A stretch of DNA of 64,000 bases, from positions 323,454-387,453 of the forward strand of contig JAQTON010000001.1 in NCBI GenBank assembly GCA_028713325.1. Reading direction: 5' to 3'. Shown in pieces: positions 9,369-60,470 of this stretch. Position 1 is the stretch's first letter, and every line of letters begins with the position of its first letter. A model generated the notes under the pieces. It searched no databases. It was not told where the DNA came from and saw only the letters and a list, made by a program, of their open reading frames with translations. The stretch comes from Candidatus Altimarinota bacterium (GTDB lineage Bacteria > Patescibacteriota > Gracilibacteria > BD1-5 > UBA2023). Made by a program: the position numbers and the translations under genes.

Positions 9369-12300
9369 ATGACCCATCAAAATTTCGAATCCGTGTATTC
9401 TCGTCTCAATACCAAACAAAAACAAGCGGTCGATACCATTTATGGTCCCGTGATGGTTATCGCGGGACCCGGAAGCGGGAAAACCGAACTTCTTTCTGCT
9501 CGGGTCGCAAACATCCTCCGAGAAACGGATGTGAATCCCGGAAATATCCTCTGTCTGACTTTCACGGACAATGCTGCAAAGAATATGAGGGAACGCCTAT
9601 CTCGCATCATCGGTGCGGATGCATACAAGGTGGCGATTCATACATTTCATAGCTTTGGTAATGACGTACTGAATCGATACCGTCACCGAGTTTCGGACTA
9701 TGCGGAAGCTTCTCCGATCGACGATATAGAAGTATCCCGTCTGTTCGACGAAATTTTGATCGCTCTTCCATGGAACGACCCCTATAAACCCGGACAAAGT
9801 GCCAACGAGAAAATCCGTGAACTTCGGGAAGCCATTAAGAATTTGAAGGACGCTGGAATTACACCTGAAGAGTTCGGTGAGATTATTGCCGTCAACAAGA
9901 AAACGATGAATATTGTGAATCCGCTTATCCGAGCTTATCTCGACGAGCTTTTTTCGCTCGGTCAGAAAAAAGAAGATAAAACACGAAAATTGGAACTGTT
10001 TCAATCTTTTACGGATGCGGCAAATGAGGTGCTTTCTCTGCTTCCGAAATATCACGGAGTGCATATGAGTTTCGCAAATATGTTTCTACAAAGCCTGTCT
10101 GAAGCTTGGGAATCGCAAGAAAATGAATCCGACGCGAAAATTATCACCAAATGGCGAGATGAATGGCTAGAAAAGGATCACCAAGGAAAATATATCCTCA
10201 AAGACAGTGTTCGTCTTGATAAACACGAGTCCCTTGCACGAATTTATTCGCTTTATCGAGACAGGATGAAGGAGCGGGGATACATCGACTTTTCCGATAT
10301 GATTCTCTCGGCTATCGGACTCATCGAAGAATATTCGGATGTTCGGGCAAATCTTGCCGAACAATATCAGTTTGTTTTGATCGATGAATATCAGGACACG
10401 AACGATGCACAGATGCGGCTTATTACCGATATCCTCGAAGTGAGCGAGAGTCCGAATGTATTCGCGGTCGGAGACGACGATCAGTCCATATACAAATTTC
10501 AGGGAGCCAATACGAAAAATATCCGCCTATTTAGAGATCGCTGGCCGGATACCGAGCTTATCATCCTCGATACGAACTACCGTTCCAATAGTGAGATTAT
10601 CGAGGTTTCTCGCCGACTTATGGACGCTTCCATACACTCCATAGGCGACATCTTTTCCGGTGCGACGAAGTCTTTCCATTCCCATCGAGGGACGGGAGGA
10701 AAAGTGATACGGCAGGTTTTTGAAAATGAAGCGGAGGAGCTCGTTTGGATAGCGGATGATATTGCGAAAACCGTTGAATCTGGCATTCTTCCTCATGAGA
10801 TTGCGGTTATTTCGAAGAAAAATAAAACTCTTGAAAATCTCGCGAAAGTTCTGCTTTCAAAAAACATTCCCGTGGTACTGAGTCGAGACGAAAATATATT
10901 CGACTCCGAGGAAGTTCGGCTCGTGGATGAGATTCTCGAATACCTCGTATCTCTCAGAAACGACGGAAATCCGCGAGATGAGATTCTTCTCTCCATTCTT
11001 GCTCATCCGTGTTTCGGCGTGCATCGTCTCACCATCTGGGAGATTTCCAAATCCATTCATCATGCCAGACGAGAAGAGAGAAAATCTTGGATTGACACGC
11101 TTCGTACTCATGCCGATACGAATCTCCGAAATCTTGCCAATTTCCTCATAGAACTCTCTATTCTTTCTCACCATACGAGGCTGGAAGATTTGATCGATTT
11201 TATTACCGGAGCGAACGCTCTCGGTATCCCCGACGAGTACGATGAAGATCCGACCAAAAATCTGATCCAGATCGATATGTTTGGAGGAGGAAAGAAGGAG
11301 TATATATCTCCGATATATGCCTATTATTTTAACAGAGATAGAGTTGAAAAAAATAATATTTCAGGAACTATGCAAAAGCGAAGTAATTCGAGTGAAAATC
11401 GAGAACCGGAATGAGTCGTACGAAGTCAGTACGGCGAATGAGGAAGCAGAGATTTGAACTCGAAAGACGAGTTTTTCCATAGTTCCATCTATGCCAGACA
11501 TCTTGCGAATTTGCGAAAATTGGTCGAAGCGGTACGAACGTTTAAAAATGGCGTATGATTCCTTTCTATCCTCGATTACGGTGAATTTATCCGTCTCGTG
11601 AAAAAGTATGACATCAAGATTTCCGCTTCTCACCTCATCGGAAATGACCGAACGAGCGTGAACCTCATAACCGTGCACAAGGCAAAGGGGTTGGAGTACG
11701 GACGAGTATATGCCATGGGATTGACGGAGAAGCAATACAAACTCGGGAAATTCGGAGGATCTCCTTTGCCGAAAAACCTTCCGCTCGCTGCGGAAAAAGA
11801 CGACGACGAAGATATCCTCCGTCTCGTTTACACGGTATTTACGCGTGCAAAAAACGAACTCATCCTCTCGTATGCTCGGAAAAACCTCGCAGAAAAGTCC
11901 GATAACCCACTCGGGTGTCTCACGAATATCGAAGAACCTTTTTCTCCGATGGAGAACATATCCATCGATTCGCTCACATTTTTTCTCGAACGCGAACGAA
12001 AGGAACTTTTCAGTCTCCCGTATCAGTGAGACGAGCGAAATTTCCTCCTCGATCGCATCGAGAAACAATTCGTCATGAATACGACGGCGTTGCAAAATTT
12101 TCTCAATGTGGCGGATACGGGTCCGGAAGTGTTCATCAGCAACAATATCCTCCGATTTCCGCAGGCAAAAAGCGTGGCAGCGAGCTACGGATCGGCTATG
12201 CATTCGGCTCTCGAACAATTCTTCAATGAATACAAGAGTTCCGGACTCTTTCATAAACAACGACTCTTTGATGCGTTCAAAACTTCTTTTAAAAAAGAAG

Positions 12301-39357: not shown

Positions 39358-40880
39358 GCGTATTTTACGAATTCTCCAATCTCTAATTCTTTTTTGTCCC
39401 CCTCGATCATAGATAATTTCACCTCATCGTACTCGTCCACTTCCGGTGCTTGTATCTCTCGGCGGATTATTGTTTTTTTCTCGTCAAAATCCATAATGTA
39501 TCCGGAGAATGTTTTCCCTCGGGCGTTTTTTGCATGTTTCGCATAAATCTCATCAAGAACCTTGGAGAGTTTCTTCATCCGTTGATTCACGACCGCTTCA
39601 CTCACTTTTTGGTCGAGTTTGGAGCTCGCAGCGAGTGCTTCGTCGTGATATTGGAACACTCCGACCGATTCGAAATCGTGGCGTTTCACGAATGCGAGAA
39701 GGTGCTGGAAATCCGCGTCGGTCTCACCCGGGAATCCGATGATGAAACTCGTCCGTATGAACGCATCGGGAAAATTCTCTCGGAGGGATTTCAGGAATGC
39801 TTCCACATGTGCCTCGTCGTAGTGGCGTCCCATGCGTTTGAGGATGTGTTCGCTCGAATGCTGAAAGGGGATATCGAAGTAGGGGAGGAGTTTCTTGAGA
39901 TTTTTCAGTCGCTGTATATGGTCGAGCGTCAGGATGTCCGGGTACATATAATAGAGCCGAATTTTAAAGTCTCCCGGAATCGCCTCGATTTGTTCGAGGA
40001 GTTCGAAGAGTTTCGGTTCACCATAGAGATCGGTTCCGTATCGGGTCGTATCCTGAGCGATAATCTGAATCTCTCGGATGCCGTTTGCGAGCATGGTGTG
40101 CACTTCTTTCACGACATCTTCCATCTTTCGACTCGTCTGTTTCCCGCGAATCTGCGGGATGATGCAGAATGTACAACTATTGTCGCATCCTTCTGCTATT
40201 TTTAAGTATTCATACCCAAAAGGTGCATGAATATACGCACGGACTTCGTCACCTCTCCAAATAAACGCACTCTTCGGTAAATGAGAAATAACTTCAATCT
40301 TCGCGTTCAAATCTTGCATTTCCTCGTTCGCCGTACTGTCTTCGTACGCCTCACTACGGTCCGCGATTTTCGCACGAATATTATCGTTCTTTCCCATTTC
40401 CTGTGTCCCACTCTTTTTTATACTTTTTTCTCCAATCGAATTGAGATATTCAGTCAACTTCTTCTCCTTCGACTGTTTCATCGCCACTTTCGCTCGCACG
40501 ATGGCACTCATATCGATTCCGACGGTCTTCCCGAAGAGAAGCCCTTCAATCGTCGTATAGCTGATGAACGGAACCACCGAATGGAGATTCTTTAGACTCG
40601 AGAGAAACGAATCGTCTTTCACGGATACATAACACCCCATGAGGATCAATTTCTTCCCGAGATTGTCATAGTGACTGAGAGTCTGTTCGGACTCCGCACG
40701 AGCCGATGACAGGAATCCGCAGGTATTGACTATCACATAATCCGCTTCCGGGTCTTCCGGGTCTTCTATATACTCGATGGGCGTGCGGTCTGAGTACTTC
40801 AAAATCTCCCCGATAGCGAATTCGAGGTCGACGAGGTTTTTGGAACAACCGAGGTTGATGGAGGAGAAGCGAAAGGACAT
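39351..40880 (-). CDS. rimO: Ribosomal protein S12 methylthiotransferase RimO with repeat-encoded insert
   Basis: 509 residues; typical RimO is about 440. UPF0004 domain with C12, C54 and C83 for one 4Fe-4S cluster; radical SAM motif EGCDNSCTFC (C232, C236, C239) for the second; PYFDIPFQHSS and a C-terminal TRAM domain. It adds a methylthio group to an aspartate of S12. The extra residues (about 161-200) sit between the two cluster domains and are encoded by a copy of the dispersed hairpin repeat. MiaB is less likely because of the RimO-like GCDNSCTFCIIP and IPFQHSS context. Last gene of gatB-cupin-rimO. Confidence 0.92.
   Translation of the reverse strand: MSFRFSSINLGCSKNLVDLEFAIGEILKYSDRTPIEYIEDPEDPEADYVIVNTCGFLSSARAESEQTLSHYDNLGKKLILMGCYVSVKDDSFLSSLKNLHSVVPFISYTTIEGLLFGKTVGIDMSAIVRAKVAMKQSKEKKLTEYLNSIGEKSIKKSGTQEMGKNDNIRAKIADRSEAYEDSTANEEMQDLNAKIEVISHLPKSAFIWRGDEVRAYIHAPFGYEYLKIAEGCDNSCTFCIIPQIRGKQTSRKMEDVVKEVHTMLANGIREIQIIAQDTTRYGTDLYGEPKLFELLEQIEAIPGDFKIRLYYMYPDILTLDHIQRLKNLKKLLPYFDIPFQHSSEHILKRMGRHYDEAHVEAFLKSLRENFPDAFIRTSFIIGFPGETDADFQHLLAFVKRHDFESVGVFQYHDEALAASSKLDQKVSEAVVNQRMKKLSKVLDEIYAKHAKNARGKTFSGYIMDFDEKKTIIRREIQAPEVDEYDEVKLSMIEGDKKELEIGEFVKYAL
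40281..40400 (-). repeat. Long-hairpin repeat, copy C, in frame inside rimO
   Basis: AAATGAGAAA / TTTCCCATTT ends, inner CGTACTGTCTTCGTACG hairpin. 120 bases, 40 codons; adds residues 161-200 without a stop in the rimO frame. Confidence 0.82.
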
Positions 40881-59000: not shown

Positions 59001-60470
59001 ATGTCTTTTCTCGACATCCGTCACTACAAGTACCTTACATCCATCATCGATCGAAATCTGGATTTTCCTGCGTTCATGGATTTCGAGCATCATTATCAGG
59101 TGTCTGCAAATAAGGAGCAATACTCCATCGAAAAAGCGTATTTTTCCTACAAGGAATCTCTTATTGAAAACACTATAGATCCCAAACTTCGGTCCATTAT
59201 CGATATGGAATCGGAACTTCTTCCGGTTCTATCAGATATGGAGCGAACGGGAGTGTATGTGGATGCGGAACAACTTCGTGTCATCGGTGAAGATATCGCG
59301 AGGGAGTCGAAGAATAAAGAACTCGAGATATACGACCTCGTCGGCGAGAGGTTCAATATCAACTCCGCGAAACAGGTGCAGGTAATCCTCTTCGAGAAAC
59401 TCGGAATCCCCGTTTCCAAGAAGATCAAGACCGGATATACCGTCGATAACGAGGCACTTTCCCTCATCGGACAGAAGTATGAGATAGCGAATATCATCCT
59501 CCAGTATCGCACGCTTGAGAAACTTCGCTCCACCTATATCGATGGACTCCTGAAGGTGATAAACCCGGAAACGAAACGTATCCATACCACCTACAATCAG
59601 CTCGGTGCTTCCACCGGGCGACTCTCTTCGGAAGCACCGAATCTTCAGAATATCCCTTCAGGAGAGGGGTATCCGGCACAGATCAAATCTTGTTTCCGTC
59701 CTAAACCACCTCACTCCACCTCCCACAAGGGGGCTGCCTTCGGGGAGCCTCTTCCTGGAGGAGAGGGAGTTTCTGAGTACTTATTTTTGGTTGCGGACTA
59801 TTCGCAGGTGGAACTCCGAATCCTGGCAAGCCTTTCGGGAGACGCATCTCTCATAGACACTTTTACCCGATGAGAGGATATTCATACCCGTACCGCTCGT
59901 TTTCTCTTTGGGGAACAGACGACTATTACTTCCGAGCTTCGCCGAATCGCGAAATCGGTCAATTTCTGAGTCATTTACGGCATTACGGGATTCGGTCTCT
60001 CGAAAGTCATCAACACCTCGCCCGCCGAAGCTACAAAATACATCGATGCTTTTTACGCGATGTATCCGGGAGTTCGCACCTACTACCAGTCCATACTCGA
60101 CGGAGCTCACAAGAACGGGTATGTGGAGACTTTTTACGGACGTAGACGCCACACTCCCGGTGTGCGAGATAGCAATAAGATGATTCGTGCAGGAGCGGAA
60201 CGGGAGGCTATCAATATGCCGATTCAGGGAACCGCCGCGGATATTATCAAGATTGCGATGATAGAGATAGCTCATTTTCTCGAGAGGGGTTCATATAAAT
60301 CCCGGATGCTCCTGCAGGTCCATGACGAGCTCGTTTTCGAGGTGCATGAAAGTGAAAAAGAGGTGGTGGAGAAACAGATTCGTTCTATCATGGAAGGAGT
60401 TTTTTCGGGGAACGTGAAACTCCTCGTGGATATCCATACGGGAAGAGATTGGGCGGATGCGAAAGGGTAG
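59001..60470 (+). CDS. polA: Minimal DNA polymerase I (polymerase domain only)
   Basis: 489 residues. Thumb and palm begin about 65 (SELLPVLSDMERTGVYVD); motif A VADYSQVELRILASLSGD; the O-helix RRIAKSVNFGVIYG, whose glycine 323 is UGA; motif C LLQVHDELVFEV. The 5'-nuclease domain is absent and only some 65 residues precede the polymerase, so no working 3'-exonuclease. PolA is normally about 850-930 residues. Just before motif A about 22 extra residues (about 236-257) are encoded by a palindromic repeat. It would fill gaps in repair and lagging-strand synthesis without proofreading. Confidence 0.95.
59707..59772 (+). repeat. Palindromic repeat in frame inside polA
   Basis: AAGGGGGCT...AGCCTCTT inner stem and CTCACTCCACC / GGAGGAGAGGGAG outer arms. 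G/C-rich relative to its surroundings and unlike the 120-bp family. Adds Pro/Gly-rich residues between the fingers entry (SCFRP) and motif A. Confidence 0.7.

Follow-up and report, generated by a model that had tools for sequence, protein, structure and literature searches.

Can an essential replication gene carry a mobile repeat in frame next to one of its most conserved motifs, and if so, where did the repeat come from? The question is raised by a 64,000-nucleotide stretch (the window) of a Candidatus Altimarinota genome (GCA_028713325.1, contig JAQTON010000001.1, positions 323,454 to 387,453), in which a preliminary description, made from the sequence alone, noted that a G/C-rich nested palindrome has expanded polA beside motif A, and concluded that at least two repeat types have entered essential genes of the window. 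Here we report that the insert is real and that it belongs to a dispersed palindromic family found in frame in many conserved genes of related Gracilibacteria.

The insert before motif A of polA

Under NCBI table 25, in which TGA is read as Gly, the polA frame includes two in-frame TGA codons and its product matches Pfam DNA_pol_A at E 1.2e-135 (Table 1). When this protein was aligned to solved Pol I chains, the largest insertion was 21 residues just before VADYSQVEL, while motif A and the other conserved blocks are intact. The interval given in the preliminary description delimits the repeat exactly (CACCTCACTCC...GGGAGTTT), and its GC content is 63.6%, against 47.7% for the rest of polA and 41.8% for the window. 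The inner arms exist, but as a single DNA strand the stretch folds no better than shuffled sequence (z -1.05, 32 of 200 shuffles as good), so palindromicity alone is not beyond chance here and the evidence is homology. The exact hairpin occurs once in the window (chance mean 0.01) and once in the genome; the exact inner hairpin has 0 matches in viral contigs, and the insert is not a member of the 120-bp repeat family of the window. The best Rfam hits are eukaryotic microRNA families far below their gathering scores, which we take as chance. An intein is likewise not indicated, as an insert of 22 residues is far too short and no intein family appeared among the Pfam matches.

Table 1. Coordinates of polA, its palindromic insert and two copies of the 120-bp repeat, as positions in the window.
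Position	Strand	Feature	Sequence
59001..60470	+	polA: family A DNA polymerase domain, 489 aa in table 25 (TGA = Gly), without a 5'-3' exonuclease domain	
59707..59772	+	In-frame palindromic insert (long variant); net 63 bp longer than the empty site of sister species	peptide PPHSTSHKGAAFGEPLPGGEGV
59707..59717	+	Conserved outer end of the family; third block of the BoxC/triplex layout	CACCTCAC-CC type
59727..59735	+	Left arm of the inner, nested hairpin, present in the long variant only	AAGGGGGCT
59746..59753	+	Right arm of the inner hairpin	AGCCTCTT
59757..59772	+	Right stem arm and end of the palindrome	GGAGGAGAGGGAGTTT
59790..59816	+	Motif A codons, intact directly after the insert	VADYSQVEL
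11362..11445		Copy of the 120-bp repeat reading through inside a 1177-codon UvrD-like helicase ORF	
40320..40403		Copy of the 120-bp repeat in a stop-free frame of a 512-codon ORF on the minus strand	

PolA was found in 57 of 59 related genomes, and the region could be read in 29 of the 30 loci fetched (27 further genomes with PolA matches were not read): three have the insert and 26 do not. Within the genus (this genome, G000, and the sister genomes G001, G002 and G004 to G006), the DNA alignment shows an empty site in G001, G004 and G006 and inserts of +63, +36 and +39 bp in G000, G002 and G005, all in the same codon gap and all multiples of three. The short inserts read KVPHPNPLLEGEGA and EPIPHPQPLSQRARGV. 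The long form found here occurs also in leuS of G002, where the DNA is 84% identical over 61 bp (E 3e-11), at the leuS site where G004 carries the short form; the long form thus looks like a short palindrome that gained a second palindrome at its tip. In trees of PolA, LigA and CysS, built to ask whether the polA insertions of G000 and of G002/G005 are one event, G002 and G005 group together (support 90 in the concatenated tree) and the rest is unresolved.

The AlphaFold2 model of the protein (mean pLDDT 81.9) leaves residues 239-255 of the insert below 50 and predicts the motif A strand, residues 260-268, and the rest of the polymerase core well. The simplest view is that the insert is translated as a Pro/Gly-rich, probably disordered, flexible surface loop at a turn. 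While this polA lacks the 5'-3' exonuclease domain, G004 has a separate PolA-type exonuclease ORF which itself carries a palindrome copy.

The claim of two repeat types in important genes of the window is also supported. The copy of the 120-bp repeat within the UvrD-like helicase ORF (Table 1) lies in the loop region where the G004 homologue carries two copies of the palindrome described here, and one UvrD-like helicase ORF of G004, of 1118 codons, holds an inverted palindrome pair and a further copy, all in frame. The identity of the family, its many other host genes and the nuclease described below could not be seen from the sequence alone.

A dispersed palindrome in frame in conserved genes

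Short copies gave the consensus ACCTCACCCCAACCCTCTCCT-loop-AGGAGAGGGAGTT, in full layout CCTCACCCC-AA-CCCTCTCCT-loop-AGGAGAGGGAGTT, from which a covariance model was built. At E <= 0.1, 35 of 59 relatives have matches: 15 in this genome, 45 in G002, 59 in G004 and 100 in G005, but 2, 2 and 0 in G001, G003 and G006, where both strands of one palindrome can be counted. In this genome ten distinct sites pass E <= 0.01, G002, G004 and G005 hold 31, 43 and 76 matches, and in an even draw over the phylum 36 of 192 genomes have matches at E <= 0.001. The polA copy itself is so degenerate that the short-form model scores it only at E 0.88; its membership rests on the homologous long copy in leuS and on the short copies at the same polA site. 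The stem is kept through paired changes, with 35 cells changed on both sides against 2.8 in shuffles, although the alignment was fitted to the model.

The layout is that of the BoxC/PIT/TM_ECO triplex motif of E. coli (PMC4666352), with a C-rich stem, a G-rich stem and a second G-rich block at the printed spacings. Allowing small spacing changes, 108 of 140 genus copies and 50 of 64 copies from four genomes of another family lie within five substitutions of its consensus, CCCTCNCCC N3-6 GGGNGAGGG N3 GGGNGAGGG, against 0 of 140 and 0 of 64 shuffled, although only 8 and 3 match exactly and the polA copy has no match within five substitutions; we therefore regard the latter as a derivative rather than a typical member. 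The 140 copies are the non-overlapping copies of at least 33 nt among the best 150 of 197 rescanned matches over 91 loci, the regions of the best 121 of the 150 matches in G002, G004 and G005 having been taken, and the 64 remained of 73 matches in a sample of high-scoring copies only. A typed Gracilibacteria consensus finds 526 of 5426 E. coli genomes, and the one place examined, 91% identical to it, is intergenic and matches the published consensus exactly. In E. coli MG1655 all 23 copies are intergenic and no mobile element was found with them (PMC4666352), whereas here most copies read through genes in frame, the loop-proximal pair is usually T-A, and a nuclease is found between copies.

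Of the 140 copies, 102 lie in a stop-free frame of an ORF of 200 aa or more with at least 30 aa on each side (5 of 9 in this genome, 16 of 27 in G002, 36 of 39 in G004 and 45 of 65 in G005). Random positions of the same loci do so in 76%, so copies neither seek nor avoid genes. NCBIfam named a host family in 19 of 20 proteins submitted, among them LigA, CysS, LeuS, RNase R, MnmA, HflX, RsmF, TsaD, ClpB, Elp3, PcrA, RecG and MutY, often with the domain match split at the insert; the twentieth, a membrane-protein-like ORF of this genome, had none, and one of those named matched only through its S1 domain. LigA has the insert in G000, G002 and G005 and not in G001, G003, G004 and G006, while CysS has it only in this genome, among six read.

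Reading frames are not used evenly. In this genus 39 of 102 copies use the PHPNPLLxGEG frame (expected 20.8 from open frames, p 2.6e-5), while in G054 and G055, of another family, 22 of 27 use the TSPQPSP frame (expected 6.2, p 2.3e-10), although copies are related to each other and these p values are optimistic. The same loops are hit in different families, sometimes in different frames, as in PcrA and LeuS; these pairs were chosen because their flanks looked alike and give no rate. We suggest that insertions arise anywhere and that those breaking the frame or falling in structured parts are lost, so that survivors sit in frame in tolerant loops, the same loops again and again, a reading we consider likely.

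DUF559 nuclease genes and inverted palindromes

All 29 close pairs of palindromes are in the same order, + then -, with the CCTCACCCC ends outside. A DUF559 domain (PF04480, Vsr-like, of the PD-(D/E)XK superfamily) was found inside RsmF and RecG ORFs: in RsmF of G004 and G005 and RecG of G005 and G055 the nuclease lies between a + and a - palindrome and everything is one open frame, and an 854-aa ORF of G036 shows the same bracket. One RsmF ORF of G005 (locus L223, 1621-3678, minus) holds five palindrome copies plus a DUF559 nuclease domain in a single open frame. Over the best DUF559 locus of 30 genomes, palindrome sites lie within 150 bp of the nuclease at 35 per 9,000 bp and elsewhere in the same loci at 9 per 77,621 bp; however, only 9 of 30 are bracketed in + - order, 8 have one correct side and 13 have none in the expected orientation. 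Over 59 genomes copy number goes with DUF559 number (rho 0.55, p 5e-6), and 15 of 16 genomes with ten or more copies have DUF559 against 20 of 43 others (p 0.0009). The one exception is the genome studied here, which is 94.9% complete and has no DUF559 match.

Independent of our model, inverted repeats between the two flanks exceed every one of 107 control pairs at 20 of 29 Gracilibacteria loci, one locus having been left out for a cut flank. In plasmid-collection records from cyanobacteria, alphaproteobacteria, Deinococcus and others (21 of 25 listed were fetched, several of them close relatives), 15 of 21 loci have flanking inverted repeats that at most 1 of 100 shuffles reach, 12 of 21 exceed the 95th percentile of mismatched flank pairs, and six show no significant inverted repeat. 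Some ends are BoxC-like (Sinorhizobium, Synechocystis, Pseudanabaena galeata) and others are other palindromes; in P. galeata the nuclease lies inside a 4.9-kb gene, and in Sphingomonas parapaucimobilis plasmids DUF559 genes with palindromic flanks sit between operon partners (transhydrogenase subunits; sufB and sufC).

Based on these observations, we propose that the complete element is palindrome, nuclease gene and inverted palindrome, that inverted pairs and single palindromes are its nuclease-free derivatives, and that the polA insert is such a relic. We are highly confident that the polA insert is an in-frame, degenerate long copy of a dispersed palindrome, and consider the explanation as a whole likely, but that the DUF559 endonuclease moves the family is more tentative, with the evidence evenly poised: no target duplication or excision was demonstrated, and the nuclease could also have invaded palindromes rather than moved them.

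Origin of the palindromes and related systems

The last of these possibilities, a homing-type nuclease that cuts and invades pre-existing palindrome pairs while the palindromes multiply by replication slippage, triplex-induced repair or an unknown transposase, is the strongest alternative, though we think it the less probable. Inverted pairs without nuclease are common, usually about 10 bp apart, nuclease genes sit between such partners, and triplex motifs are linked to instability (PMC4666352). On the other hand, copy number follows nuclease number over genomes, and in other phyla the nuclease is flanked by palindromes of other sequence, as expected of element ends, although a nuclease with a loose palindrome taste would look alike. 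A passive palindrome of the REP type, copied in trans by a RAYT (Y1 transposase) as GTAG REPs are thought to be, would fit the REP-like layout (hairpin, inverted pairs, dispersal), intragenic REPs in Pol I, UvrD and tRNA synthetases are reported (PMC3733652), and 17 of 59 relatives hold Y1_Tnp. It is nevertheless unlikely, as the consensus ends are ACCTCACCCC and GGGAGTT rather than GTAG, Y1_Tnp is absent from all four repeat-rich genomes of the genus, including this one, and copy number does not clearly go with Y1 transposases (rho 0.23, p 0.07); G003, with fourteen Y1_Tnp matches, mostly fragments at contig ends, has almost no palindromes of this family.

An adaptive role, in which the insert, or palindromes in repair and replication enzymes in general, alters fidelity or another activity, has in its favor the position next to motif A and the recurrence of LigA, PolA, PcrA, RecG and MutY as hosts, the pattern on which PMC3733652 speculates about mutators. 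We consider it very unlikely, although enrichment of gene classes was not tested, because hosts also include tRNA synthetases, RNase R, HflX, pilins and penicillin-binding proteins, and the PolA loop is absent in half of the genus, differs in length and sequence, and models as disorder. While the turn varies by a few residues among PolA proteins, a native low-complexity Pro/Gly loop is refuted by the long copy in leuS of another species and the short family copies at the same site in two species.

Palindromes in frame in bacterial genes are already known. Rickettsia palindromic elements (Ogata 2000, 2002; reviewed in PMC10969869) are inserted in frame in many unrelated genes and kept as extra peptide, but are about 150 bp long, of apparently unrelated sequence and from another phylum, and here the peptide frame differs between lineages. 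Intragenic GTAG and CGTC REPs (PMC3733652) lie in frame inside repair, replication and tRNA genes, DNA polymerase I among them, but appear to be of other sequence families and tags, most copies there are intergenic, and CGTC REPs have no known dedicated transposase. In REPtrons (PMC3733652) an enzyme gene is bracketed by palindromes otherwise spread through the genome, the enzyme being an HUH Y1 transposase there and a PD-(D/E)XK-type nuclease here. DUF559 has been described as a mismatch-repair-like protein of Caulobacter (PMC12907096) and reported with a transposase in repeated recombination hotspots of Legionella (PMC12308824), while here it is found inside other genes and bracketed by palindromes. 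In a literature search confined to open papers, we found none that links DUF559 with palindromic ends, nothing relevant on palindromes in Gracilibacteria, and none containing any of six peptide strings of the repeat. What appears to be new is that copies are mostly in frame in core genes with lineage-preferred frames, and that some bracket, in inverted orientation, a Vsr-like DUF559 nuclease, even inside recG and rsmF.

BoxC-type palindromes have been known since the 1990s without a mover or a function, and the nuclease reading, if right, gives a testable origin for a common class of bacterial repeats and a natural record of which loops of polymerase, ligase, helicase and tRNA synthetases tolerate insertions. 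It is possible, though we hold this only tentatively, that DUF559 nuclease genes with palindromic ends are a widespread, unrecognized class of bacterial mobile element, and that BoxC-type and similar REP-like palindromes across phyla are its nuclease-free derivatives. In Gracilibacteria the element would then have become a protein-coding parasite, copied into surface loops of core enzymes in a lineage-specific reading frame, sometimes with the whole nuclease in frame inside RecG or RsmF. The changed genetic code would also make more frames of the repeat harmless: 21 of 102 in-frame copies contain an in-frame TGA, which would be a stop in the standard code, and 572 of 840 frames over copies are open in table 25 against 441 in table 11.
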